47,655 bases of DNA from Palleronia rufa (GTDB lineage Bacteria > Pseudomonadota > Alphaproteobacteria > Rhodobacterales > Rhodobacteraceae), in assembly GCF_000743715.1 (NCBI RefSeq), contig NZ_JQEY01000010.1, positions 72,818 to 120,472 of the forward strand, written 5' to 3'. Shown here in pieces: positions 26,607-41,940 of this stretch. Position 1 is the stretch's first letter, and every line of letters starts with the position of its first letter. A program made the position numbers and the translations under genes. The notes beneath the pieces are model-generated. The model was not told where the DNA came from and ran no database searches. It was given only the letters and a program-made list of their open reading frames with translations.

Positions 26607-27242
26607 TCAGATTAACCGGTACTCCTTCGCCTTGAGAATGGCCTCGGGGAGCGTTCGTACGTCTAGTCTTTGCCGGACGGAAGACAGGCGCGCCTTCAGC
26701 GCACTTTCCGATATTCCGAGGCGATATGCCGCGGCTGCAAGACGGTCACCGTCCGCGATGCAACAAAGGGCCTCTGCCTGAGCCTTCGTCAGCTCGGCCG
26801 GCGGCTGCGCGCTGAGATGCATCCGCGCCACGATCTGCTCCGCCGTGGCAAGCTCCTCGGCGGTGAACTCCCGGTCCTCGCGGGAAATGCCGACGATACT
26901 GCGGGACTGCAGGGGCCCGACCGAGATAGCGGCTCCGAAATTGAGACCAAATTCCCTGGCTTGCTGCCAGATTCCAAATGGATCGGGCACGGCGATCTCA
27001 CTCCAGCGCGCCGCGCCCGTCGTGCTCAGCCCCCAACCGATCAGGGGATCGCGGAGCGCGTAGCCCTGCTCGGTATAGATCTGCAGCCATTCCTCGGGAT
27101 AGGTGTGCGCCGTGATGGTCGGTGCCGCGAACCTGATGTGCAGACCGACGGCGTAGCCCCTTGGCGCGACATGCCCAAGCGCGCCGAGATCCTCATCCAG
27201 ATCCTTCAGGCGCCACGACCGTGCGTCGAACCGAAAAACCAT
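26607..27242 (-). CDS. luxR: LuxR-family quorum-sensing regulator
   Basis: A 211-residue LuxR-type transcription factor. The N-terminal autoinducer-binding domain carries the expected Trp 52, Tyr 56 and Asp 65 (EEWLQIY and RDPLIGW) plus Trp 80 and Gly 103. The C-terminal helix-turn-helix runs from LTKAQAEALCC (151-161) to the end; its recognition helix region ISESALKARL departs from the common TVKxH pattern, so DNA specificity may differ. The ATG at 27242 follows GAAGG by 7 bases. It is paired with luxI downstream, and three short palindromes lie in the upstream gap (27292-27378). Confidence 0.92.
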   Translation of the reverse strand: MVFRFDARSWRLKDLDEDLGALGHVAPRGYAVGLHIRFAAPTITAHTYPEEWLQIYTEQGYALRDPLIGWGLSTTGAARWSEIAVPDPFGIWQQAREFGLNFGAAISVGPLQSRSIVGISREDREFTAEELATAEQIVARMHLSAQPPAELTKAQAEALCCIADGDRLAAAAYRLGISESALKARLSSVRQRLDVRTLPEAILKAKEYRLI

Positions 27243-27291
27243 CCGCAACCTTCTTTCCCTACAGACGCCCACGGAAAACCGGCGTGAAAGC

Positions 27292-27378
27292 GTCTTAAGA
27301 CAACCCCTTATACCAGACCGAGTCATACAACGGCCTGGGGTTGATTATCAAAGGAAAGTTCGCGTTACCTTACGTAAG
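27292..27378. promoter_or_regulatory. cluster of short palindromes upstream of luxR
   Basis: Three near-perfect palindromes occur within 87 bases between rplQ and luxR: GTCTTAAGAC (27292-27301), TTGATTATCAA (27341-27351) and CTTACGTAAG (27369-27378). The region is more AT-rich than its surroundings. The middle one overlaps TTGATA, followed 17 bases on by GTATGA on the minus strand, a possible luxR promoter. One or more may be a LuxR-type operator, though none matches a standard 18-20 bp lux box. Confidence 0.4.
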
Positions 27379-27413
27379 CCTGACGTCCGTTGGTCGTGGC
27401 CAGGACGTGTGGA

Positions 27414-27827
27414 TCACTCGGCCTCTTCGGCCTCCAGCCGCGCGCGGTCGCCGGCGCCCTTGGCGTCGCGGTCGCGGTCCACGAACTCTATGATCGCCAT
27501 GGGGGCCATGTCGCCGTAGCGGAATCCGGCTTTCAGAACGCGCACATAGCCGCCCTGCCGCGTGGCGTAGCGGGGGCCGAGAACGTCGAAAAGCTTGGCC
27601 ACGTGCATGTCCTGCTTGAGTTGCGACGCGGCCTGCCGGCGGGCGTGCAGGTCGCCGCGCTTGCCCAGGGTCACGAGCTTTTCGACGATCCGGCGCAGCT
27701 CCTTGGCCTTGGGGAGCGTGGTCTTGATCTGCTCATGCTCGATGAGCGATCCGGCCATGTTGGAAAAGAGCGCCTTGCGGTGCTCATGGGTACGGTTCAG
27801 GCGGCGGTAGCCGCGGGCGTGACGCAT
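27414..27827 (-). CDS. rplQ: 50S ribosomal protein L17
   Basis: L17, 137 residues, sits near the exit tunnel of the large subunit. [25 protein letters not shown] is the family N-terminus, followed by [25 protein letters not shown]; the C-terminus is an acidic EAEEAE tail. It is last in the alpha operon after rpoA, but separated from it by 158 bases that contain an 11-bp repeat array, so its expression may be set apart from that of rpoA. Confidence 0.97.
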
Positions 27828-27914
27828 GGTGTGTCCTTTCGCGTTTTGCTTTGTCCGGCCGGGGGATGCGTGTCACCCGGCTCTCCTTGGGGCTTGTGCC
27901 CGGTCGTGTCCTAC

Positions 27915-27958
27915 CCCCGTCGGACCCCCGTATGAGCCCTGTAGGAGTCTTGTAGGAG
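27915..27958. repeat. four imperfect 11-bp tandem repeats between rpoA and rplQ
   Basis: Four contiguous 11-base units fill 27915-27958: CCCCGTCGGAC, CCCCGTATGAG, CCCTGTAGGAG and TCTTGTAGGAG (plus strand). Neighbouring units share 7 to 9 of 11 positions and the register is exact. The array is non-coding in every reading I tried and lies in the transcribed spacer. A small hairpin (GGGCG/CGCCC) sits between it and the rpoA stop. Confidence 0.75.
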
Positions 27959-27985
27959 GGCGCGTACGCCCCCCTAAACCTTTTC

Positions 27986-29002
27986 TTAGAAGTTATCCTC
28001 GAACTTCTTGGCCAGGTCCTCGATGTTCTCGGGCGGCCATTCCTCGACGTCCATGCCCAGGTGGAGGCCCATGCCGGACAGCACTTCCTTGATCTCGTTC
28101 AGCGACTTGCGGCCGAAGTTCGGCGTGCGCAGCATCTCGGCCTCGGTCTTCTGGATGAGGTCGCCGATATAGACGATGTTGTCGTTCTTGAGGCAGTTGG
28201 CGGAGCGGACCGACAACTCCAGCTCATCGACCTTCTTGAGCAGCAGCGGGTTGAACTCCAGCCCGTCGTCGTCGGTGGCCTGACCGCCCTGGTCGGGCTC
28301 GTCGAAATTGACGAAAATGCCCAGCTGGTCCTGGAGGATCCGCGCGGCGAAGGCCACGGCGTCGTCGGGGCTGACGGAGCCGTCGGTTTCGAGCTTCAGC
28401 GTCAGCTTGTCGTAATCCAGCACCTGGCCCTCACGGGTGGGCTGGACGTCATAGCTGACGCGGCGCACCGGGGAATAGATCGCGTCGATGGGCATCAGGC
28501 CGATCGGCGCGTCCTCCGGGCGGTTCTTGTCGGCCGAGACGTAGCCCTTGCCCTGGTTCACGGTCATCTCCATGAACAGTTCGGCCCCCTCGTCCAGGTG
28601 GCAGATGACGTGCTCCTTGTTGAGCACCTCTATGCCCTGGCTCACGGCGATGTCGCCGGCGGTCACGACCATCGGGCCCTTGGCCTGGATCGACACCCGT
28701 TTGGGCCCCTCGACCTCCATCTTGATGGCCACGCCCTTGATGTTGAGCACCACGTCGGTCACGTCCTCGCGGACGCCGGCGATGGAGCTGAACTCGTGCA
28801 GGACGTTGTCGATCTGCACGGAGGTGATCGCGGCGCCCTGCAGCGACGACATCAGAACCCGGCGCAGCGCGTTGCCCAGCGTCAGGCCGAAGCCCCGTTC
28901 CAGCGGTTCGGCCACGACCGTGGCCTGGCGATGGGGATCGTTGCCGGGCTTGATCTCCAGCTGCGCCGGCTTGATCAGTTCCTGCCAATTCTTGTGAAGC
29001 AT
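27986..29002 (-). CDS. rpoA: RNA polymerase alpha subunit
   Basis: A 338-residue alpha subunit, standard for alphaproteobacteria. The N-terminal dimerisation domain (to about 235) shows [22 protein letters not shown], and the C-terminal DNA- and activator-binding domain shows [46 protein letters not shown]. It nucleates the polymerase core and contacts UP elements and regulators. The start at 29002 ([12 protein letters not shown]) is the conserved one; an upstream ATG would add 16 unrelated residues. It is part of the alpha operon rpsM-rpsK-rpoA-rplQ; rpsD is not present here. Confidence 0.98.
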
Positions 29003-29118
29003 GTATGTCTCCTCAATTCCTGTCGGCAGCCCATGCAAAGCGCGCGACACCCCGAGGTAAAAACGACGATTGCGGACCGCGCCATGGGGGCACGGTCCGC
29101 CGGACGGTCAGGTTGCGA

Positions 29119-29511
29119 TCAGACGCGGCGGCGCTTGGGCGGACGGCATCCGTTGTGGGCCATGGGCGTCACGTCGCGGATCGACGTGATGTTGAACCCC
29201 ACGGCGGCCAGGGCGCGCAGGGCGCTCTCGCGGCCGGAGCCGGGGCCCTGGACCTCGACCTCGATGGTGCGCACACCGTGCTCCTGGGCCTTGCGGCCGG
29301 CGTCCTCCGCGGCCATCTGCGCCGCGTAGGGCGTCGATTTCCGGGAGCCCTTGAAACCCATGGTGCCGGCCGACGACCAGGCGATGGCGTTGCCCTGGAC
29401 GTCGGAGATCAGGATCTTGGTGTTGTTGAACGAAGAGTTCACATGCGCAACGCCGGCGGCAATGTTCTTGGAAACCTTCTTTTTCGCGGTAGCGCGACGG
29501 TCGCGTGCCAT
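29119..29511 (-). CDS. rpsK: 30S ribosomal protein S11
   Basis: S11, 130 residues, forms part of the small-subunit platform near the mRNA exit. Family blocks are present: [53 protein letters not shown] and the C-terminal [18 protein letters not shown]. It follows rpsM by 15 bases and precedes rpoA by 116 bases. Confidence 0.98.
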
Positions 29512-29526
29512 TGGTCAGGCCTCCCC

Positions 29527-29895
29527 TTACTTCTTCTTGCCGGCAATGGCCTTCGCGGGGCCCTTGCGCGTGCGTGCATTGGTATGGGTGCGCTGGCCGC
29601 GCACGGGAAGGTTGCGCCGGTGGCGCAGACCGCGATAGCAGCCCAGGTCCATCAGGCGCTTGATGTTCATCTGCGTCTCGCGGCGCAGGTCGCCCTCGAC
29701 CGTGTAGTTCTCGTCGATATGCTCGCGCAGCTTGAGCACGTCGGAATCCGACAGCTCGTTGACGCGGCGGGCCGGGTCGATGCCCACGGCGTCGCAGATC
29801 GAGCGGGCAGAGGACGGGCCGATTCCGGTGACATAGGTCAGGGCGACGGGCACCCGCTTGGCGGTGGGGATGTTGACCCCGGCGATACGTGCCAA
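29527..29895 (-). CDS. rpsM: 30S ribosomal protein S13
   Basis: S13, 122 residues, contacts tRNA and the 50S subunit from the head of the small subunit. It starts [26 protein letters not shown] and ends with the basic [23 protein letters not shown] tail. It is the first gene of the alpha operon here, about 150 bases downstream of a promoter-like pair, and its leader can fold into a long nested stem (29957-30026). Confidence 0.98.
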
Positions 29896-29956
29896 ATATA
29901 CGTTCCTTTTCGTTGCGAGCCCGTGGTACCAGGCCCTTTTTTCACAACGTCGGACC

Positions 29957-30026
29957 GCGGCACGGTGCGCGCCGGCGGCCTTGCGTCTGACAGGTGTTCC
30001 GGGCCGCCGGGCAAACCCCGTGCCGC
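29957..30026 (-). ncRNA. nested-stem leader RNA before rpsM (candidate cis-regulator)
   Basis: Two perfect 9-bp stems nest in the rpsM leader: an outer pair GCGGCACGG (29957-29965) with CCGTGCCGC (30018-30026), and an inner pair CCGGCGGCC (29972-29980) with GGCCGCCGG (30002-30010). They are joined by a 6 x 7 internal loop and closed by a 21-base apical loop. The structure lies between the candidate promoter at 30049-30077 and the start codon, as expected of an autoregulatory ribosomal-protein leader; E. coli controls this operon by S4 binding, but the fold here is not obviously the E. coli pseudoknot. Confidence 0.5.
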
Positions 30027-30048
30027 ACCCGATCCGTTGGGATGCTGC

Positions 30049-30077
30049 GCCTTAGTCGGGATTCGGAACGGGGTCAA
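30049..30077 (-). promoter_or_regulatory. candidate promoter of the alpha operon
   Basis: On the minus strand TTGACC (30077-30072) is followed after exactly 17 bases by TAAGGC (30054-30049), about 155 bases before the rpsM start. It would give the rpsM-rplQ genes a start separate from secY-adk and leave a leader long enough to hold the nested stem. Confidence 0.55.
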
Positions 30078-30172
30078 GTCCACCCCGCCCCCTGCCGGGG
30101 ACGCGGCGGACCCATGCCGGACCCGGAGTGTTGGGACGCGCGCTGCGGCGGCGGCGTTTCCGGTCCCGCGGG

Positions 30173-30286
30173 CTAGTCGTCCCGCGCGTCCAGCCAGTTG
30201 ATGACGAACACCAGGGCGACGCCGCAAAGCCCCAGTCCGAATCCGATAGCATAGACGGCGATGACCGTCTGCGTGATGGTATCCAT
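30173..30286 (-). CDS. 37-residue single-span membrane protein, unrecognised
   Basis: A short open frame of 37 codons plus TAG. The product MDTITQTVIAVYAIGFGLGL... is one hydrophobic helix (about residues 7-31) followed by a polar tail NWLDARDD, giving a likely N-out or N-in single-span protein. AGGCAGG lies 5-11 bases upstream of the ATG at 30286. Codon third positions are mostly G or C. It lies between adk and rpsM in the ribosomal block, on the same strand, 141 bases after adk. No family is recognised; a role near the SecY translocon would be guesswork. Confidence 0.6.
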   Translation of the reverse strand: MDTITQTVIAVYAIGFGLGLCGVALVFVINWLDARDD

Positions 30287-30427
30287 TAGCCTGCCTCGAT
30301 CGTTTTTTGTTTTGGTCGTGTTTGTGAGGTCAGGCTACAGGATCGAGACCCCCGCGCGAAGCCCCCCGGCCGGGTTTTTTCTTCGGTCCGACCGCCGGCG
30401 CCCCGGGTGCGGGTCGCGGCACCGCGG

Positions 30428-31080
30428 TCAGGCGCGGGAGTCGATCACGTCCTTGATGGCGCGGGAGACCTCTTCGATCTCACCCAGCCCGTCGACCCGG
30501 TCCAGCTGATCGTTGGCGTGGTAATAGCCGATCAGCGGCGAGGTCTTCTTGTAATATTCGAGCAGGCGCTGCTTGAGGCTTTGCTCGTTGTCGTCCTCGC
30601 GGCGCTTGAACTCGGTGCCGCCGCAGACCGCGCATTTGCCGTCCTCGGGGATCGGCTTGGTGATGTCGTTGTACATCTCGCCGCAGTTGGCACAGGTCGA
30701 GCGGGCGGTGATGCGGCGCACCAGCGCGTCGTCGTCCACCTGCATCTCGATCACGGCGGTCAGACGCTCCCGCTTCTTTTCCAGCAGCGCGGCCAGCGCA
30801 TCGGCCTGGGCCAGCGTCCGCGGGAACCCGTCGAAGATGAAGCCGTCGGTGCGGTCGGCGTCGAGCCGTTCCTCGATCAGGCCGATCACGATGTCGTCGG
30901 TGACCAGCTCACCGCGGTCCATCACCTCCGCCACCCGCCGTCCCATGTCGGACCCGGAATTGCGGGACTGCCGCAGCATGTCCCCGGTGGAAAGCTGCGT
31001 CATGCCGCGCTCTTCCACCAGGCGGCGGGCCTGGGTGCCCTTGCCGGCCCCAGGCGGTCCCAGAAGGATGATGTTGGTCG

Positions 31081-31084
<4 letters not shown>
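30428..31084 (-). CDS. adk: adenylate kinase
   Basis: A 218-residue adenylate kinase converting AMP and ATP to two ADP. The P-loop [11 protein letters not shown] is at residues 8-18, the AMP-binding STGDMLR follows, and [11 protein letters not shown] is the conserved active-site block. The LID holds four cysteines (CANCG near 130 and CAVCGG near 150), so it is the zinc-binding long form. Its start overlaps the secY stop (ATGA), the usual secY-adk coupling. The usual next genes infA or map are absent. Confidence 0.97.
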
Positions 31085-32457
<1,373 letters not shown>

Positions 32458-32518
32458 GGGGGCCTCTCTCATGACCATGGGGCGGTCCGGCTCTCGGCCC
32501 ACCGCGCAATTCTGTGGT

Positions 32519-32547
32519 CATCTAAAGACGCGCGCCTGTCTCCGCAA
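32519..32547 (-). promoter_or_regulatory. candidate promoter of secY-adk
   Basis: On the minus strand TTGCGG (32547-32542) is followed after exactly 17 bases by TAGATG (32524-32519), 61 bases upstream of the secY start. It explains how secY-adk is expressed despite the intervening opposite-strand gene. Confidence 0.6.
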
Positions 32548-32626
32548 CCTCGTTCGGCGCGGCGGACCGGAACTTGCGCCCCCGGGGGCCGTTCGGCAGG
32601 GGGACGACAATGGGGGGCAGGTGTCC

Positions 32627-33313
32627 ATGTTCGCAAATCTCGGCAACCGCCACGAGGAGGCCGACATCGTCGCGCGGGAGCGGCCCGAACTGCTGATGTT
32701 CTGTGGCCTCGTCGGGCTGATCGGCAATGTCATGCCCGTGGTGACGATCTTCTGGGGCTGGTCGGTCACCGACCATGCCTTTGTCGCCGACACGATCAGC
32801 GACCTCGCCCGCGGCGACAACAAATGGATCATGGACCTGGGGTTCTATTTCCACGCCGCCGGGCTTCTGGCGCTGGCCATCGCGGCGGCCCATGCGCATC
32901 TGGGCCGGGCGGGCTGGTCGGTGGGGATCTTCTGCCTGGCGTTCCTGGCGCTCGACGTGGTGCTGCTGGGCCTCTGGGACGAGTTCGGCGCCTCGGCACA
33001 GCCCGGAGACGGCATGAGCGTCCACACCAAGCTCAGCTTCGTGCTGGGACCGCTGTTTCTTCTGGGTCCGCTGGTCATGGTGCCCGGCGTGGCCGGGCTG
33101 TCGCGGACCTATGCGGCGCTCTTCGTCGGCGCCGCGGCGTCCTGGGCGGTGTTCGCCACCGGGTTCAAGCTGGCCCCGGACGGGATCGACGGGCTTCTGG
33201 AAAAGATCGCGGTGGTCGGCGCGATGGGCTGGACGCTGCCGCTGTCGTTTCTCTACCTCGCGCGCGGGTACGAGAAATCCCACCGCGTGGCCGGGCGGGC
33301 GGAGGCGGGCTGA
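32627..33313 (+). CDS. DUF998-type membrane protein inserted among ribosomal genes
   Basis: A 228-residue integral membrane protein with six predicted helices, for example LLMFCGLVGLIGNVMPVVTIFWGW, FHAAGLLALAIAAAH, GIFCLAFLALDVVLLGLW and LGPLFLLGPLVMVPGV. The layout and length resemble the DUF998 family, whose function is unknown. The ATG at 32627 is preferred because the conserved, membrane-directed sequence follows; the open frame extends upstream through the secY promoter region. It is transcribed against the surrounding ribosomal genes and sits between rplO and secY, which are normally adjacent. A 13-bp hairpin follows its stop. Confidence 0.75.
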   Translation: MFANLGNRHEEADIVARERPELLMFCGLVGLIGNVMPVVTIFWGWSVTDHAFVADTISDLARGDNKWIMDLGFYFHAAGLLALAIAAAHAHLGRAGWSVGIFCLAFLALDVVLLGLWDEFGASAQPGDGMSVHTKLSFVLGPLFLLGPLVMVPGVAGLSRTYAALFVGAAASWAVFATGFKLAPDGIDGLLEKIAVVGAMGWTLPLSFLYLARGYEKSHRVAGRAEAG

Positions 33314-33345
33314 ACCGCCGCGCCGGTCTGCCCCGGCGCGGCGGT
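33314..33345. terminator. strong bidirectional hairpin between DUF998 gene and rplO
   Basis: ACCGCCGCGCCGG (33314-33326) pairs over all 13 bases with CCGGCGCGGCGGT (33333-33345), loop of 6. It lies exactly between the convergent stops of the DUF998-type gene and rplO. Neither side has a true T-run, so termination may need Rho, but the stem would end or protect both transcripts. Confidence 0.6.
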
Positions 33346-33367
33346 GGCCGCCGCCCTGCGGGCCGCC

Positions 33368-33841
33368 TCAGGCCTCGGAGGTCTCGCGGGGCTGGGTCAC
33401 GGTGACCGAACCGCCGGCCTTTTCGACCGCCTCGATGGCGCCCCTGGAGGCGCCGGTGACGGTGATCTTGGCCGCGGTCGTGAGTTCGCCCTTGGCCAGC
33501 AGACGGATGCCGTCGCGCTTGCGGCGCACCAGGCCCGAATCGACCAGCTCGGTCTCGGTGATCTCCTCGCCCAGCTTGCCGGCGTCGATGAACTTCTGGA
33601 TCAGGCCCAGGTTCACCACCGCGTAGGACTTGGCGTTGCGGTTGTTGAAGCCGCGCTTGGGCAGGCGCTGGTAGAGCGGCATCTGGCCGCCCTCATAGCC
33701 GTTGATCGCCACGCCGGACCGGGACTTCTGGCCCTTGATGCCGCGTCCGGCGGTCTTGCCCTTGCCGGAGCCGGGGCCGCGGCCGACGCGCCGGGCCTTC
33801 TTCGCCGCGCCGTCGTTGTCGCGGAGTTCGTTCAGTTTCAT
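33368..33841 (-). CDS. rplO: 50S ribosomal protein L15
   Basis: L15, 157 residues, a late-assembling 23S rRNA-binding protein. [41 protein letters not shown] is the glycine-rich basic N-terminus; [17 protein letters not shown] follows. It normally lies between rpmD and secY in the spc operon; here a GFA-domain gene precedes it and an opposite-strand membrane gene follows, making it nearly a single-gene unit with its own promoter-like site at 33917-33945. Confidence 0.98.
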
Positions 33842-33916
33842 GTCGCTTCTCCTGTCTTGCCGGACGACCCCTCCGGGAAGCGGATGAGGGGGACACGGCC
33901 TGCGTTCAGATGGGCG

Positions 33917-33945
33917 CGTATAGACAGGGTGGCGCGCAAGATCAA
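33917..33945 (-). promoter_or_regulatory. candidate promoter of rplO
   Basis: On the minus strand TTGATC (33945-33940) is followed after exactly 17 bases by TATACG (33922-33917), 75 bases upstream of rplO. It lies between the GFA-domain gene stop and rplO and is the most AT-rich spot of that 177-base gap. Confidence 0.6.
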
Positions 33946-34018
33946 GCGCCCGCCGCGTGGCCAGAGGCCCGCGCCGCCGGGCGCGCGATGCGGACGGCGC
34001 GGGCCCGGGCGCCGCGCG

Positions 34019-34459
34019 TCAGGACGGCGTAGGCCACTGGAAATCCGGGCGCAGCCCGTCATAGACGGGGCGCCCGTCGTCCGGCTTGGCATAGCCTTTC
34101 GATTCGTCCCAGAACGCGTGGTAGTCGGCCTCTGGAAAGCGCGCTTCGTCGTAGCCCATGACGTTGGGCACCGCGACGCGGATGCGCCGTTCGGTATCGT
34201 CCAGCATGATCGGCGTGCCGCAGTCCTGGCAGGTGCACAGCTGCAGCGGGCCGTCGGGATTGTCCTTGTTGAACGGCTGGCGGGCCAGTTTCTCCGGGTG
34301 ATCCACCGTCAGGTCGGCATGGTTGAAGAACGCCACATGGGTGGTCTGCTGGCCGGTGACGGACTTGCAGACGTCGCAGTGACACACGTGGTTGTCGATC
34401 GGCGCGGCGCTGGCCGTGGCATGGATGTGGTCGCAGCCGCCTTCATAGTGATCGGACAT
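34019..34459 (-). CDS. GFA/CENP-V-type zinc-binding protein
   Basis: A 146-residue protein of the glutathione-dependent formaldehyde-activating (GFA)/CENP-V fold. Zinc ligands are seen in GGCDHIHATASAAP, CHCDVCKSVTG and LCTCQDCGTPIM; CHCxxC and CxxCG are family hallmarks. GFA proper binds a glutathione-formaldehyde adduct, but most relatives have no proven substrate. The ATG at 34459 follows GGAGGAG by about 8 bases. The gene lies between rpmD and rplO, normally adjacent, just past a strong terminator, so it should have its own promoter; I do not see a good one in the 140-base gap. Confidence 0.88.
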   Translation of the reverse strand: MSDHYEGGCDHIHATASAAPIDNHVCHCDVCKSVTGQQTTHVAFFNHADLTVDHPEKLARQPFNKDNPDGPLQLCTCQDCGTPIMLDDTERRIRVAVPNVMGYDEARFPEADYHAFWDESKGYAKPDDGRPVYDGLRPDFQWPTPS

Positions 34460-34596
34460 GGGGATTCTCCTCCGCTTGCGGCCGGACATCGGCCACGGGG
34501 GCAAGACTGCGCCCCATCGGTGCCGCGGTCCACATATCCTTCGGTAGGGGCGTGCCGCGCGGGGGCCGTTGCGGTTCGCGGGGGGCCGGACAGAAA

Positions 34597-34620
34597 AACG
34601 GCGCCCCGGGAGGCGCCGTT
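34597..34620 (-). terminator. strong Rho-independent terminator after rpmD
   Basis: AACGGCGCC (34597-34605) and GGCGCCGTT (34612-34620) form a perfect 9-bp stem with a 6-base loop. Read on the minus strand the stem is followed by TTTTTCTG, with the T-run at the stem base, the classic intrinsic form. It begins 21 bases past the rpmD stop and should end the rpmC-rpmD transcript inside what is usually one continuous spc operon. Confidence 0.85.
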
Positions 34621-34641
34621 CCTGTCGGGATGTCGGGGCGG

Positions 34642-34830
34642 TCAGCCCCGCTCTTCGACGATCTCCACGAGATGCGGGATCTTGTTGACCATGCCGCGGA
34701 TCGAGGGCGTGTCCTCAAGCTCGCGGGTGCGGTGCATCTTGTTCAGGCCCAGCCCCACCAGGATCTGGCGCTGCACCTTGGGGCGGCGGATGGGAGAGCC
34801 GACCTGCTTGACGACGATGGTTTTGGCCAT
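34642..34830 (-). CDS. rpmD: 50S ribosomal protein L30
   Basis: L30, 62 residues, the usual small bacterial form. [33 protein letters not shown] matches the family start, and the ferredoxin-like core ends [15 protein letters not shown]. It starts 3 bases after the rpsE stop, so the two are co-translated. A strong terminator follows. Confidence 0.97.
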
Positions 34831-34833
34831 GGA

Positions 34834-35418
34834 TCAGGACTCCTCTGCGACCTGGGCGGAGGCCTCTGGCGCCTCGTCCCGCTTGGGCAGGATGTCCGCG
34901 ACCTTCTTGCCGCGGCGCTGCGCCACCGACCGGGGGCTGGACTGGTTCTGCAGCCCGTCCAGCGTGGCGCGGATCATGTTGTAGGGGTTCTGCGAGCCGT
35001 TCGACTTGGCCACCACGTCCTGCACGCCCAGCATCTCGAACACGGCGCGCATCGGTCCGCCGGCGATGATGCCGGTACCCTGGGGCGCGGTGCGCATGAC
35101 CACCTTGCCGGCCCCGTGGCGGCCGTTGACGTCATGGTGCAGGGTGCGCCCGTCGCGCAGCGGCACGCGGATCATGTTGCGCTTGGCGGCCTCGGTGCCC
35201 TTGCGGATCGCCTCTGGCACCTCCTTGGCCTTGCCCTTGCCGAAGCCGACGCGGCCGCGCTGGTCGCCCACGACGACGAGCGCCGCGAAGCCGAAGCGCT
35301 TGCCGCCCTTGACGGTCTTGCTGACGCGGTTGATCGCGACGAGGCGATCGGCGAATTCCGGGTTCTCGTCACGGTCGCGGCGTCCGCCCCGCCCGCCTCT
35401 GTTGTCGTCTCTGGCCAT
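34834..35418 (-). CDS. rpsE: 30S ribosomal protein S5
   Basis: S5, 194 residues, a fidelity protein at the mRNA entry. The RNA-binding domain shows [29 protein letters not shown] and [15 protein letters not shown], and the C-terminal domain shows [36 protein letters not shown] poly-Gly/Arg N-terminal leader ([15 protein letters not shown]) and an acidic C-terminal tail extend the E. coli form, common in alphaproteobacteria. rplR lies 106 bases upstream. Confidence 0.98.
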
Positions 35419-35524
35419 GCCTGGCTCCTTCCGTCAGGGGGCATCGCGCCCCGCACCATCCGATCCCTGGTGGGCACGAGCGGCCCCCGGATCATCGAGG
35501 GAGGCAACCTGCCTCCCTGCGCCG

Positions 35525-35884
35525 TCACAGTTTCAGACCACCGTCGCGCGCGGCATCGGCCAGCGCCTTGATGGTGCCGTGGTAGAGGAACCCGCCGCGG
35601 TCGAAATAGGCCTGCTCGACCCCCTTCGCCTTGGCGCGCTCGGCGATCGCCGCGCCGACCTTGGCCGCCGCGTCCCGGTTGTTCTTGCCGACCACGCCCA
35701 GATCCTTTTCCAGGGTCGAGGCAGAGGCCAGCGTCACGCCCTGACCGTCGTCGATCAGCTGCGCGTGGATGTTCTTGTTCGAGCGGTGGACCGACAGGCG
35801 GAGACGCCCGGTGTTCACCTTGCGAAGCTTGTTCCGGACGCGCAGGCGGCGCTTCTGGAACAGCTGCAACTTACTGTTTGCCAT
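35525..35884 (-). CDS. rplR: 50S ribosomal protein L18
   Basis: L18, 119 residues, binds 5S rRNA together with L5 and L25. [13 protein letters not shown] is the basic N-terminus and [19 protein letters not shown] the conserved core; [22 protein letters not shown] is the C-terminal signature. It follows rplF by 12 bases. Confidence 0.98.
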
Positions 35885-35896
35885 CTGTCCGGTTCC

Positions 35897-36430
35897 TTAC
35901 TTCTTCTTGCCTTCCTTGCGGAAGATGAACTCACCCTTGTAGCGGATGCCCTTGCCCTTGTAGGGCTCCGGGCGCCGCCAGTCGCGGATGTTGGACGCGA
36001 CCTGGCCCACCTGCTGCTCGTCGCTGCCCTCGACCACGATCTCGGTCGGTTTGGGGGCTGTGACGGTGATGCCGTCGGGCACCTCGAACTCCACATCGTG
36101 GCTGAGGCCGAGGTTCAGGCGCAGGGTGTTGCCCTGCATCTGCGCGCGGTAGCCGACGCCCTGAATCTCAAGCTCCTTGCGGAACCCGGTGGTCACGCCC
36201 TGCACCAGGTTCGCGACCATGGTGCGCGACAGGCCCCACTGCTGGCGCGACCGCTTGGACAGGCCACGGGGCGTGACCTTGATCGCGCCGTCATCCATGG
36301 CGATGGTCACATCGTCGGTCGCCTTGAAGGAGCGGGTGCCCTTGGGCCCCGTCACCTCGACCCGCTGGCCGTCGATCTTCGCCTCGACCCCGGAGGGGAT
36401 CTCGACGGGACGTTTTCCGATACGAGACAT
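35897..36430 (-). CDS. rplF: 50S ribosomal protein L6
   Basis: L6, 177 residues, two tandem RNA-binding domains at the base of the L7/L12 stalk. [22 protein letters not shown] opens the protein and the C-terminal signature [18 protein letters not shown] is near the end, with a terminal KKEGKKK-like basic tail. It lies 11 bases downstream of rpsH. Confidence 0.98.
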
Positions 36431-36441
36431 CTTGCCCTCCT

Positions 36442-36834
36442 CTAGAAGACGGTGCAGAGCACTTCACCGCCGACATTGGCCGAACGCGCGGCCTGGTCGG
36501 ACATGACGCCCTGCGGGGTTGAGACGATGGACACGCCAAGGCCCTGGCGGACCGAAGGAAGGTCCGCAACGCCCATGTAGACGCGGCGGCCGGGCTTGGA
36601 GACGCGCCTGAGATCCCGGATCACCGGGGTTCCCTCGTAGTACTTGAGGGAGATCTCGATCTGCGCGTGGCCGTTTTCATCCACCGACTTTTCGTAGCCG
36701 CGGATATAGCCCTCGTCCGCCAGCACATCCAGAACCCACGCGCGAAGCTTGGAGGCCGGGCTGCGGACGGTGGACTTGCCGCGCATCTGCGCATTGCGGA
36801 TGCGGGTCAGCATATCGCCGAGAGGATCGTTCAT
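36442..36834 (-). CDS. rpsH: 30S ribosomal protein S8
   Basis: S8, 130 residues, a primary 16S rRNA-binding protein and, in E. coli, the translational repressor of the spc operon. [23 protein letters not shown] and the C-terminal [32 protein letters not shown] are diagnostic. If S8 autoregulates here, the rplO and secY units with separate promoters would escape direct control by an rplE-leader target, an inference worth noting. Confidence 0.98.
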
Positions 36835-36846
36835 GTCATACCCTCC

Positions 36847-37152
36847 TTACCAGCTCGATTTCACAAGGCCGGGGATCTGTCCGGCCGAGCCGAGATCCCG
36901 GAGCGCGATCCGGCTCATCCTTACCTTGCGGTAATAGCCGTGCGGACGCCCGGTGAGCTGGCAGCGGTTGTGCAGGCGGGTGGCCGAGGAGTTGCGCGGC
37001 AGCTTGGCCAGCTTCAGCTGGGCCTTGAACCGCTCTTCCATCGGCTTCGATTCGTCGCGCGCGACGGATTTCAGCTCGGCACGCTTGGCGGCATATCTGT
37101 CCACCAGCGCCTGACGCTTCTTCTCGCGCTCGATCATTGCTTTCTTGGCCAT
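36847..37152 (-). CDS. rpsN: 30S ribosomal protein S14
   Basis: S14, 101 residues, the long zinc-independent form: no CxxC pairs are present. [28 protein letters not shown] opens it and [38 protein letters not shown] is the 3' rRNA-binding end. It sits between rplE and rpsH with short gaps. Confidence 0.98.
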
Positions 37153-37167
37153 GATATCCTCCAGGCT

Positions 37168-37728
37168 TTAGCTGCTGAACGGCATGTTGAAATGCTTCAA
37201 CAGCGCCTTGGCTTCCGCGTCGGTCGCGGCGGTGGTGACGATGACGATGTCGAGGCCCCAGGCCTCGTCGATCTTGTCGAAATTGATCTCCGGAAACACG
37301 ATATGCTCCTTGAGACCCATGGCGAAGTTGCCGCGCCCGTCGAAGGACGGCTTGAGCCCCCGGAAGTCCCGCACCCGCGGCAGCGCCACGGTCACCAGAC
37401 GGTCGAGGAAATCGTACATCCGCGCGCCGCGCAGCGTCACCTTGGCGCCGAGGGGCATGTCCTCACGCACCCGGAAGCCGGCGATCGACTTCTTGGCCTT
37501 GGTGACGACGGCCTGCTGGCCGGCGATCCGGGTCAGGTCGTCCGCGGCGGATTTCGCCTTCTTCGAATCGCGCACCGCCTCTGAGCCGGCGCCGATGTTC
37601 AGCACGATCTTTTCCAGGCGCGGAACCTGCATGTCGTTCTTGTAGGAGAACTCTTCCTTCAGGGCCGCGCGGATCGTCTCGTCGAACTGCTGGCGCAGAC
37701 GCGGGGTGTATGTGGCTTGGTCCAGCAT
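37168..37728 (-). CDS. rplE: 50S ribosomal protein L5
   Basis: L5, 186 residues, binds 5S rRNA and contacts the P-site tRNA. The conserved [39 protein letters not shown] and [20 protein letters not shown] blocks are present. Its start overlaps the rplX stop by one base. In E. coli S8 represses at the rplE start; I did not identify the S8-binding stem here. Confidence 0.98.
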
Positions 37729-38033
37729 CAGATCGCGTCTCCCGTGGTCTTGGCGAAGCGCACCTTCTTGCCCTCTTCCTCGCGGAAGCCGACGCGGGTC
37801 GCCTTGCCGTTGGCGTCGACCAGGGCCAGGTTGCTCAGGTCGATCGGCATCGCCTTGGGGGTGCGGCCGCCCTGCGTGGTCTGGGACTGGCGCACGTGGC
37901 GGATGGCGACGTTCACGCCCTCCACGATGGCCTTGCCCTTGGCGGGCATGACGGTCTGGATCGCACCCTGCTTGCCCTTGTCCTTGCCGGCCAGCACGAT
38001 GACCTTGTCGCCCTTGCGGAGTTTCGCAGCCAT
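37728..38033 (-). CDS. rplX: 50S ribosomal protein L24
   Basis: L24, 101 residues, an early assembly initiator. It begins [23 protein letters not shown], a KOW motif, and contains [19 protein letters not shown]. The ATG at 38033 fits; the longer open frame upstream is out of frame with rplN and lies within it. The start overlaps the rplN stop by one base, and the stop overlaps rplE. Confidence 0.97.
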
Positions 38034-38401
38034 CACAGCACCTCCGGAGCGAGCGAGATGATCTTCATGTAGTTCTTGGCCCGCAGCTCGCGGACCACCG
38101 GTCCGAAGATGCGGGTGCCGATCGGCTCGCCGTTGTTGTTGAGGATGACGGCGGCGTTCCGGTCGAAGCGGATCGCGGTGCCGTCGTCGCGGCGGACTTC
38201 CTTGGCGGTCCGCACGACGACGGCCTTGCGGACGTCGCCCTTCTTGACGCGACCGCGCGGAATGGCCTCCTTCACCGACACGACGATCACGTCGCCGACG
38301 GAGGCATATTTCCGCTTCGATCCGCCAAGGACCTTGATGCACTGCACCCAGCGCGCGCCGGAGTTGTCAGCGACATCCAGATTGGTCTGCATCTGGATCA
38401 T
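38033..38401 (-). CDS. rplN: 50S ribosomal protein L14
   Basis: L14, 122 residues, at the subunit interface. [37 protein letters not shown] and [23 protein letters not shown] are the family's ends. It lies 85 bases downstream of rpsQ and overlaps rplX by one base. Confidence 0.98.
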
Positions 38402-38486
38402 TGGTTAGATCTCCCGACCTTCAGGGACCATCCCTGGGGTTTCGTATGTGTCCCGGACCGACGACGCCGGCCCGGTCGGTCGCCGC

Positions 38487-38816
38487 TTATGTGGCGGCGG
38501 CCTCCTTCTCCTCGTGACGCTGGGCGTCCTCGACCTGCTGCTGGCGGGCGTGTTCCTCGCGCGCGATCCGATCGGCCTCGATCATCTCCGGCGTCATCAC
38601 TTCCCAGCGCTTGGTCTTGGACTTCGGCGCGCATTCCTGGATCCGCACCAGATCGCCCACGTCGAACCGGTTGTCCTCATCGTGGGCGCGGTACTTCTTC
38701 GACTTCCGGATCGTCTTTTTCAGGATCGGATGGGTGAAGCGGCGCTCGACCGACACGGTCACGGTCTGGGCGTTCTGGTTCGACGTCACGACGCCCCTGA
38801 GGATACGCTTGGGCAT
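38487..38816 (-). CDS. rpsQ: 30S ribosomal protein S17 with a C-terminal extension
   Basis: S17, 109 residues; the family norm is about 75-90. The OB-fold core is complete: [46 protein letters not shown] and [21 protein letters not shown] up to about residue 73. Residues 74-109 form a charged Glu/Arg/Gln-rich tail ending EKEAAAT. The preceding gene product L29 also has an extra tail. The start is 3 bases after the rpmC stop. Confidence 0.97.
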
Positions 38817-38819
38817 GTC

Positions 38820-39068
38820 TTACGCCTCCGTCTTGCTGTCGGCGGCCGGGGCGGCCGTCTTGTCTGACGCCGCGGCGGCGGCTTTCTCGTTCATCACCGT
38901 CTTGACCCGCGCCACGTCGCGGCGGACGCTGCGCATCCGCGCGGTGTTCTCAAGCTGGTTGGTGGCGGCCTGAAAGCGCAGGTTGAACTGCTCTTTCTTC
39001 AGCTGGGCAAGCTGGTCGCGCAGCTCGTCCGGGGTCTTGCCCCGCAGGTCGGTCGCATCGAGCGCCAT
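38820..39068 (-). CDS. rpmC: 50S ribosomal protein L29 with an Ala-rich tail
   Basis: L29, 82 residues; usual lengths are 63-70. The helical hairpin core shows [26 protein letters not shown] and [20 protein letters not shown] low-complexity Ala/Lys/Asp tail of about 20 residues follows. The ATG at 39068 ([10 protein letters not shown]) is the conserved start. L29 sits at the tunnel exit, where it binds chaperones and SRP. It is the first ribosomal gene here: rplP and the rest of the S10 block are not upstream, and a promoter-like site stands in their place. Confidence 0.96.
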
Positions 39069-39148
39069 GGTCTCGGTCCTTTGCAACATCACCGGAAGGC
39101 CCGCGGATCGCGGTCACCCTGTCGCCCGGTGGAGGTGGATGAGCGGCG

Positions 39149-39177
39149 CACATAGACCGGATACCGGCGCGGCGCAA
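39149..39177 (-). promoter_or_regulatory. candidate promoter of the rpmC-rpmD unit
   Basis: On the minus strand TTGCGC (39177-39172) is followed after exactly 17 bases by TATGTG (39154-39149), about 80 bases before rpmC. This form, TTGCGC/TATGTG, is common for strong ribosomal promoters in alphaproteobacteria. It makes rpmC the head of a transcript rather than a middle gene of S10. Confidence 0.65.
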
Positions 39178-39223
39178 CACCTTATCCCCCGCGTCGGGGC
39201 GACGCATCCCGCGCGACGGCTGT

Positions 39224-39254
39224 CTTGATCGGGTCGCGGCCGCTCCCCACATAT
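39224..39254 (+). promoter_or_regulatory. RpoH (heat-shock sigma-32) promoter of clpB
   Basis: CTTGAT at 39224-39229 and CCCCACAT at 39245-39252 are 15 bases apart. They match the sigma-32 consensus (CTTGAA and CCCCATNT, spacing 13-15), about 75 bases before the clpB start. A heat-shock chaperone is the expected target. Confidence 0.75.
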
Positions 39255-39327
39255 CCACGCAGAGGCCCCGGGGACCGCGCTGCAGGTGCGGGCGGTCCGG
39301 GCGGGCGCTTGAAAAGGAGATAAAGAC

Positions 39328-41940
39328 ATGAACTTGGAGAAGTTCACCGAGCGGTCGCGCGGGTTCATCCAGGCCGCCCAGACCATCGCCATGAGAGAGC
39401 AGCACCAGCGGCTGGTCCCCGAACATCTGCTGAAGGCCCTGCTGGACGACGACCAGGGGCTGGCGGCCAATCTGATCGCCCGGGCCGGCGGCGACGCCAA
39501 GCGCGTGGCCGAGCAGGTCGCGCTGTCGCTGGGCAAGCAGCCCAAGGTGTCGGGCGACGCGGCGCAGGTCTACCTGGACCAGACCACGGCGCGGGTGCTG
39601 GACGAATCGGAGACCCTGGCCAAGAAGGCCGGCGACAGCTTCGTGCCGGTCGAGCGGATCCTGACCGCCCTGGCGATGGTCAAGTCCAAGGCGAAGGACG
39701 CGCTGGACGCGGGCGGCGTCAACGCACAGGCGCTGAACGGCGCGATCAACGACATCCGCAAGGGCCGCACCGCCGACACGGCAAGCGCCGAGGACGGCTA
39801 CGAGGCGCTCAAGAAATACGCCATCGACCTGACCCAGCGCGCCCGTGAGGGCAAGATCGACCCGATCATCGGCCGCGACGACGAGATCCGGCGCACCATG
39901 CAGGTCCTGTCCCGCCGCACCAAGAACAACCCGGTGCTGATCGGCGAGCCCGGCGTCGGCAAGACCGCCATCGCCGAGGGCCTGGCCCTTCGCATCGTGG
40001 ATGGCGACGTGCCCGAGAGCCTGCGCAACAAGCGGCTGCTGGCGCTCGACATGGGCGCGCTGATCGCCGGCGCGAAATACCGCGGCGAGTTCGAGGAACG
40101 GCTGAAGGCGATCCTCAAGGAGGTCGAGACCGCCGCCGGAGAGATCGTCCTGTTCATCGACGAGATGCACACGCTGGTGGGCGCGGGCAAGGCGGACGGC
40201 GCGATGGATGCGTCGAACCTGCTGAAACCGGCGCTGGCCCGCGGTGAGCTGCATTGCGTCGGCGCCACCACGCTGGACGAGTACCGCAAGCACGTGGAAA
40301 AGGACGCGGCCCTGGCCCGCCGGTTCCAGCCCCTTGTGGTGTCCGAGCCGACGGTATCCGACACCGTGTCGATCCTGCGCGGCATCAAGGAGAAGTACGA
40401 ACTCCACCACGGGGTGCGGATCTCCGATTCCGCGCTGGTGGCCGCCGCGACCCTGTCGCACCGCTACATCACCGACCGATTCCTGCCCGACAAGGCGATC
40501 GACCTGATGGACGAGGCCGCGTCGCGGCTGCGCATGGAAGTGGACAGCAAGCCCGAGGAGCTCGACGCGCTCGACCGCGACATCCTGCAAAAGCAGATCG
40601 AGGCCGAGGCGCTGCGCAAGGAGGACGACCAGCCGTCCCGCGACCGGCTGGAGACGCTGGAGCGCGAACTGGCCGACCTGCAGGAGACCGCCGAGGCGAT
40701 GACCGCCAAGTGGCAGGCCGAGCGCGACCGCCTGAACGCGGGCCGCGAGCTGAAGGAGCATCTCGACCGCGCCAGGGCGGAACTCGACATCGCCAAGCGA
40801 GAGGGCAACCTGGCCCGCGCCGGAGAGCTGTCCTACGGCATCATCCCGCAGCTGGAACGCGACCTTGGCGATGCCGAGAGCGGCGAGGATCTGATGGTCG
40901 AGGAAGCCGTGCGCCCCGAGCAGATCGCCCAGGTGGTGGAGCGCTGGACCGGGATCCCGACCTCAAAGATGCTGGAAGGCGAGCGCGAGAAGCTGCTGCG
41001 CATGGAAGAGGAGCTGGGCCACCGCGTCATCGGCCAGCGCACCGCCGTCACCGCCGTGTCCAACGCCGTGCGCCGGGCGCGTGCCGGCCTGAACGATGAG
41101 AACCGTCCGCTGGGCTCGTTCCTGTTCCTCGGTCCGACCGGCGTCGGCAAGACCGAGCTGACCAAGGCGGTGGCCGAGTATCTCTTCGACGACGACAACG
41201 CCATGGTCCGGATCGACATGTCCGAGTTCATGGAAAAGCACAGCGTCGCGCGGCTGATCGGCGCGCCGCCGGGCTATGTCGGCTATGACGAGGGCGGCGC
41301 GCTGACCGAGGCGGTGCGGCGGCGTCCCTACCAGGTGGTTCTGTTCGACGAGGTCGAAAAGGCGCATCCCGACGTGTTCAACGTACTGTTGCAGGTGCTC
41401 GACGACGGGGTGCTGACCGATGGCCAGGGCCGCACGGTGGACTTCAAGCAGACGCTGATCGTGCTGACCTCGAACCTCGGATCCCAGGCGCTGAGCCGGT
41501 TGCCCGACGGGGCCGACGGCGCCCAGGCCAAGCGCGACGTGATGGACGCGGTGCGTGCCCATTTCCGGCCCGAGTTCCTGAACCGGCTGGACGAGACGGT
41601 GATCTTCGACCGCCTGTCACGGGCGGACATGGACGGGATCGTCACGATCCAGCTCAGGCGGCTGGAGGCGCGTCTGGCGCAGCGCAAGATCACGCTGGAC
41701 CTCAGCGACGCCGCGCGGACCTGGCTGGCGGACGAAGGCTATGACCCGGTGTTCGGCGCGCGTCCGCTCAAGCGGGTGATCCAGCGCAGCCTGCAGGACC
41801 AACTGGCCGAAATGATCCTGGCCGGCGACGTGGCGGACGGGGCGACGGTCACGGTGGACGCGGGCAGCGACGGGCTCATCGTGGGCGACCGGGTGGCGGC
41901 GTCGAACCGGCCCAAGCCCGACGACGCGGTTCTGCACTGA
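39328..41940 (+). CDS. clpB: ATP-dependent disaggregase ClpB
   Basis: A full-length 870-residue ClpB/Hsp104 AAA+ disaggregase that pulls proteins from aggregates with DnaK. The N-terminal Clp_N repeats are followed by the first AAA domain ([15 protein letters not shown] near 209-223), a coiled-coil middle domain from about residue 405 to 525 (long charged helices [20 protein letters not shown] onward), and the second AAA domain ([17 protein letters not shown] near 602) with [22 protein letters not shown]. The coiled coil and the lack of a ClpP-binding IGF loop identify ClpB. AAAAGGAGATAAAGAC precedes the ATG. The RpoH-type promoter upstream implies heat induction. It is divergent from rpmC. 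Confidence 0.97.

Follow-up and report, generated by a model that had tools for sequence, protein, structure and literature searches.

We analyzed a 47,655-nucleotide (nt) stretch of the Palleronia rufa genome (the window) at the region where the spc ribosomal protein operon meets rplO, secY, and adk. An original prediction had held that the operon is broken there into separately controlled units. On the minus strand, open reading frames (ORFs) and profile matches gave the order rpmC to rpmD, a GFA-domain gene, and rplO, followed by an opposite-strand DUF998 gene, secY, and adk. The ORFs from rpmC to rpmD (34642..39068) keep the predicted classical order; rpmD was identified by TIGR01308, and the remaining names, which follow the prediction and the sequences, are putative. 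Downstream of rpmD lie an intrinsic terminator (34597..34620), the GFA-domain gene (34019..34459; PF04828, E value 2e-12) as cargo separating rpmD from rplO, and rplO itself, encoding L15 (33368..33841; TIGR01071). The DUF998 gene (32627..33313, plus strand; PF06197, E value 8.2e-11; start codon uncertain) fills the interval between rplO and secY (31081..32457; TIGR00967, start set by homology), and adk (30428..31084; TIGR01351) overlaps the end of secY. The two profile matches agree with the domains that had been predicted for the inserted genes. With 800 nt holding a terminator, the GFA gene, and a new promoter between rpmD and rplO, the window lacks the classical contiguous arrangement in which these genes are adjacent and in one unit.

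The main feature of the locus was missing from the original prediction and was exposed by comparison of relatives: an RNA leader of ∼70 nt directly 5′ of rplO (33839..33909, minus strand). The leader was found by aligning rplO upstream regions, and a covariance model (R1) was built from 69 rows, window included (69 of the 81 leaders of this first alignment, near-duplicates being left out); R1 matches the window at 55.6 bits (E value 1.4e-13). It has a near-invariant helix, P1, placed by the alignments (5′ strand GCCG, 33896..33899; 3′ strand CCGGC, 33859..33863, of which CGGC pairs), a conserved internal loop, and a strongly covarying upper helix. The bases separating the Shine-Dalgarno sequence from the AUG have their complement in its hairpin loop; in the window, sequence and comparison identify the loop as CGCUUC (33877..33882) and its partner in the ribosome-binding site (RBS) as GAAGCG (33844..33849). 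RNAalifold returned nine pairs, with two-sided changes in all five pairs of the upper helix. When 100 leader sequences were fitted to R1, 98.4% of cells were paired compared to 84.2% in shuffled alignments, covariation was 0.385 versus 0.112, and 0 of 500 shuffles reached the native values; controls in which this alignment was slid were 15.5 to 55.7% paired. These sequences were the window and 99 of 133 stretches fetched from family genomes with rplO (133 of 141, without G000, G009, G030, G230, G235, G278, G287, and G331), with L192, L230 (weak), and L232 to L263 omitted. Of 197 parsed leaders, all carried a G and a U in the internal loop, under a search pattern that restricted the G position to G or T. 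A conserved and covarying RNA structure 5′ of a ribosomal gene is the hallmark of a ribosomal leader, and on these alignments the structure is almost certainly real. Folding of single sequences, tried separately as proof of the structure, failed, performing no better than on shuffles.

How widely is this leader distributed? In an independent sample of 149 Rhodobacteraceae genomes (rplO in 141, rpsE in 137), R1 matched in 129, and in 128 the match adjoined rplO; the leader thus ends at the rplO start in 128 of the 141 genomes with the gene. Second matches were few, namely weak ones at 24 to 25 bits plus a single strong duplicate, in G339, and the next-best match in the window, S8's part of the operon included, was at noise level (E value 0.26). 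An order-level sample gave matches in 120 of 121 genomes, all listed rows being Rhodobacteraceae, and a class-level sample in 3 of 190, all three again Rhodobacteraceae, with stricter filters in both searches that weak relatives elsewhere may escape.

We then considered the pairing between loop and RBS. Among 202 parsed unique leaders, 201 could form a duplex of 5 bp or more, with a mean score of 16.8 compared to 11.2 for shuffled loops. The commonest combinations were UCGCUUC/GAAGCGA (54 leaders), GUCGCU/AGCGAC (51), and CGCUUC/GAAGCG (39), and rarer ones changed on both sides together (UCGCUC/GAGCGA, GUCGCA/UGCGAC, UGACGCU/AGCGUCA, UCGCAUC/GAUGCGG, and GCUCU/AGAGC); at core positions, the pair types included TA145/AT9 and TA186/AT10/GC2. 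In the 44 leaders with a nonconsensus site, the native pairing summed to 699, a value reached in none of 5,000 permutations (mean, 576; maximum, 622). Eight of 210 unique leaders were not parsed; by eye, L192, L250, and L254 show the complementarity, and L255 to L258 and L261 do not. The duplex lay wholly inside the hairpin loop in 194 of 197 leaders, and the linker measured 5 to 11 nt in 196 of 197. From this topology we infer an H-type pseudoknot rather than an alternative fold. The covarying pairs couple the leader to the site of expression, at least comparatively, and the pairing quite probably controls translation, presumably by repressing rplO.

The break in the operon was also marked by conserved signals. 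The predicted terminator is present: on the minus strand it reads AACGGCGCC-TCCCGG-GGCGCCGTT followed by a T-rich run, and positions 34590 to 34626 fold with -22.4 kcal/mol (z = -4.0). A generic terminator scan did not list this hairpin, probably because the stem was extended into the T run. Terminator-like hairpins within 80 nt after rpmD occurred in 48 of 63 sequences (62 loci and the window) compared to 3.8% of shuffled sequences. Both promoters, read directly and recovered comparatively, have the sequences and 17-nt spacers given in the original prediction: -35 TTGATC (33940..33945) and -10 TATACG (33917..33922) for rplO, and -35 TTGCGG (32542..32547) and -10 TAGATG (32519..32524) for secY, all on the minus strand. 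A generic sigma-70 scan found no promoter-like site in the window (shuffles averaged 1.3); it demands T as the last base of the -10 element, and it missed both promoters because this T is mostly missing in alphaproteobacterial promoters, as PMC8407463 describes for most of those analyzed (position -7).

Exact TATACG stood upstream of rplO in 129 of 207 distinct genes compared to 5 of 414 shuffles, and matches of at least 5/6 in 160 of 207 compared to 101 of 414. Of these 160 matches, 150 had a 17-nt spacer, and T, T, and G opened the -35 element in 156, 156, and 154, under a score that gives spacer 17 a small bonus and includes -35 similarity. For secY, TTGTGA-N17-TACAT was matched at 8 or more of 11 positions in 187 of 208 distinct upstream regions compared to 55 of 624 shuffles, with spacer 17 in 184 of the 187; the window scores 8. 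Both promoters therefore have the alphaproteobacterial sigma-70 form, with a TTG at -35, a 17-nt spacer, and a -10 element that often lacks T at -7. Because many genera share these sites and their spacing, it is very likely that rplO and secY start from their own promoters and that the spc unit ends after rpmD. To this extent the predicted uncoupling of rplO and secY from spc stands; some read-through from rpmD into rplO is possible.

Is the break peculiar to this genome, as had been implied? We scanned genome contigs with RplO and kept the best 80 loci. Besides the window, 62 loci had both genes, with a gap between rpmD and rplO that ranged from 104 to 6,990 nt (median, 1,473); 10 further loci had no rpmD in the 9.3 kb or more of sequence preceding rplO, and the last 8 had less than 4.4 kb of sequence there. 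The rpsE-rpmD spacing, by contrast, was 0 to 16 nt. In the independent family sample, rpsE was on the contig and strand of rplO in 108 genomes, at a distance of at least 1 kb in 54 and of less than 350 nt in 22 (two partial rpsE rows, G319 and G232, were excluded from the distance count). It was on the opposite strand in 4 genomes, with one pair 2.56 Mb apart, and on another contig in 23, where assembly breaks are possible for some; 6 genomes with rplO counted as lacking rpsE. In other families of the class, rpsE and rplO lay within 593 nt on one strand in 21 of 22 genomes with both (hand count). Because the split is common in Rhodobacteraceae and the two genes are close in other families, the split, on gene order, is best read as a family trait with variable cargo. 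The original prediction had itself named the same order across the family as what would make the arrangement ordinary, and this is partly what we found: the split is commonplace in Rhodobacteraceae, but the cargo is not.

The cargo indeed varied. In rpmD-rplO gaps of at least 400 nt, the longest ORF was on either strand (27 versus 25, window included), and the GFA gene was absent from the 80 loci. GFA relatives did lie upstream of rplO in two other genera (L112:563-988, 75% identity; L117:903-1331, 72%), as recurrent cargo. A role of the GFA and DUF998 genes in defense was considered and rejected, PADLOC giving no match. The leader was present in 54 of 54 genomes with an rpsE-rplO distance of at least 1 kb compared to 46 of 54 with less than 1 kb; leader presence follows the operon break. 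Two other spacers of the region also drew attention. The adk-rpsM junction (30428-29895 in the window) is a second variable gap, of 135 to 5,114 nt in 73 loci and 532 nt in the window, and therefore the boundary between the spc and alpha operons is open as well. The rplR-rpsE spacer (35419-35524), ∼106 nt in the window and with a median of 132 nt in 61 loci, may hold another leader or be mere spacing.

The secY-adk unit has features of its own. The distance between rplO and secY was 98 to 143 nt in 79 of the 80 loci and 228 nt in one; it is 910 nt in the window because the DUF998 gene lies between them. Among the 80 loci and 13 genus relatives, a DUF998 gene near rplO was found in the window only, with relatives of the gene elsewhere in 7 of 59 other genomes; in three sister species (L264, L265, and L266), rplO and secY are 828 to 1,090 nt apart, and different ORFs occupy the DUF998 position. 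The spacer of the secY promoter is a dyad of variable sequence, with arms of 9 to 10 pairs in 110 of 184 cases compared to 4 of 920 shuffles reaching 9; it may serve the rplO mRNA as a 3′ hairpin that overlaps the promoter. This dyad covaries, often with 10-pair arms and with a constant 17-nt spacing (e.g., L168:865-985). Upstream of secY there is also a second, different leader, a hairpin with inner bases able to pair with the 5′ segment (GTTTTCC/GGAAAAC type). This pairing was analyzed in 177 of the 208 upstream regions, of which 30 had duplexes shorter than 5 pairs or weaker; its native mean was 14.3 compared to 10.1 when shuffled, and with 60 variants 0 of 3,000 permutations reached the native value. 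We rejected this hairpin as a terminator, at least 4 T in the 6 following bases being found in just 17 of 177. In the window, the secY promoter is kept and the secY leader hairpin is degenerate.

Taken together, these data suggest a model for the locus. In Rhodobacteraceae, rplO would usually be its own transcription unit, transcribed from a conserved promoter of the TTG-N17-TATACG type. The leader's hairpin loop would pair with the interval from Shine-Dalgarno sequence to AUG, forming an H-type pseudoknot that competes with binding of the ribosome (30S), and a protein recognizing P1 and the internal loop would stabilize it. Free L15 (uL15) would probably be that protein and would shut off its own translation, and secY-adk would start from the second conserved promoter. 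As a whole, this is our best explanation, and we consider it reasonably likely. L15 as the ligand is, by analogy with other ribosomal leaders, a somewhat likely assignment: no ribosomal gene except rplO lies between the leader and the separate secY promoter, which makes L15 the obvious choice, and the principle of the only following ribosomal gene is used for assigning ligands in PMC7247131. A broader and more tentative proposal, a little short of an even call, is that the family dismantled spc control and replaced it with an L15-binding pseudoknot leader on rplO, while another pseudoknot-like leader and a promoter that bears a dyad set secY-adk apart from ribosomal protein control.

Several observations weigh against this explanation. 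No convincing resemblance of the leader to this genome's 23S rRNA emerged from crude pattern matching, although only some ribosomal leaders resemble their rRNA site, and 13 of the 141 family genomes had no R1 match at rplO. Single-sequence folding was unremarkable (z = -0.42 in the window, 0.00 in L072, -0.10 in L013, and -0.98 in L075), and the nested minimum-energy fold differs from the P1-P2 hairpin in the window and in L072. Because such nested folds may compete with that hairpin, an either/or switch between the hairpin and a site-sequestering fold is possible. The linker of 5 to 11 nt may be short for spanning the whole P1-P2 stem. The permutations of loop/site pairs ignore relatedness, and a pairing score of 13 was reached by 25.9% of shuffled loops (native, 99.5%), and therefore single cases mean little.

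That no 23S mimicry was seen in that search would also fit a real switch with another ligand: S8 of the parent operon, L30, S5, a small RNA, temperature, or magnesium. S8 governs the entire spc operon of E. coli (PMC10931766). However, S8's part of the operon had no R1 match above noise in the window, and genomes carry a single copy of the leader, at rplO, bar the few second matches, which fits a leader for a single gene; we regard a different ligand as unlikely, if worth keeping in view. The genomes that live without the leader would also fit a complementarity without feedback, whose role would be to fix translation at a constant level independent of any ligand or to shield the mRNA, but the conserved G/U internal loop is typical of protein sites and superfluous for simple sequestration, and this makes such a role improbable. 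That spc is still one transcript, with incidental sites and hairpins, is compatible with the 22 genomes of short rpsE-rplO distance and is nevertheless very improbable given the conserved terminator and promoters and the genomes with rplO and rpsE on opposite strands.

The L15 feedback explanation would place the rplO leader among ribosomal protein leaders. No L15 or rplO leader was found in our literature searches, which extended to the papers themselves. The main texts of PMC8632094, PMC11109978, and PMC2864571 contain neither "rplO" nor "L15," PMC2704228 in its text on the operon names L15 just as part of spc, and none of the 20 new leaders tabulated in PMC7247131 is listed for bacterial L15, the eL15 there being an archaeal protein. 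If this explanation is true, bacterial L15 would thereby have its first autoregulatory leader, judging by the sources checked. Rfam 15 (4,227 models) gave no match at the rplO leader with E values up to 1 in positions 27000 to 40500, nor did one appear there when the whole window and six relatives were searched at gathering score. A subthreshold match to the alpha-operon leader RF00140 was seen at rpsM (29863-29941, minus strand; 20.3 bits, cutoff 38). RF03142, the L2-Alphaproteobacteria leader, matched in L009, far from rplO. In the G000 assembly, 23S was found once and 16S was not found, probably an assembly gap.

The S4/alpha operon and S15 leaders are pseudoknot ribosomal leaders. As proposed for the rplO leader, a pseudoknot in them engages the RBS region, immediately before a ribosomal gene or at it; they differ from the rplO leader in sequence, structure, and gene, and RF00140 matches solely at rpsM, below cutoff. 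The S15 pseudoknot is mentioned in PMC10931766. In that 2023 review, translational feedback by S8 is the known mode of control in E. coli, regulation of spc outside gammaproteobacteria and of its last cistrons and secY is described as unclear, and uL15 appears in the operon list only. As here, the E. coli operon runs in the same order from the rpmC side to rpmD, with rplO and secY further on; there, however, rplO lies inside the S8-controlled transcript, with the site at rplE, whereas in Rhodobacteraceae it would have its own promoter and leader. The family-wide rearrangement comes with a testable RNA element on rplO, with L15 as candidate autoregulator and natural compensatory leader variants usable for experiments, and would join operon breakup to replacement control in an essential gene set. 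The leader appears to work like a ribosomal protein leader, for which we infer ligand binding, and it resembles those presented in PMC7247131, such as L2-Alphaproteobacteria, which are likewise restricted to a family or class, lie 5′ of ribosomal genes, and have a ligand assigned from the gene.

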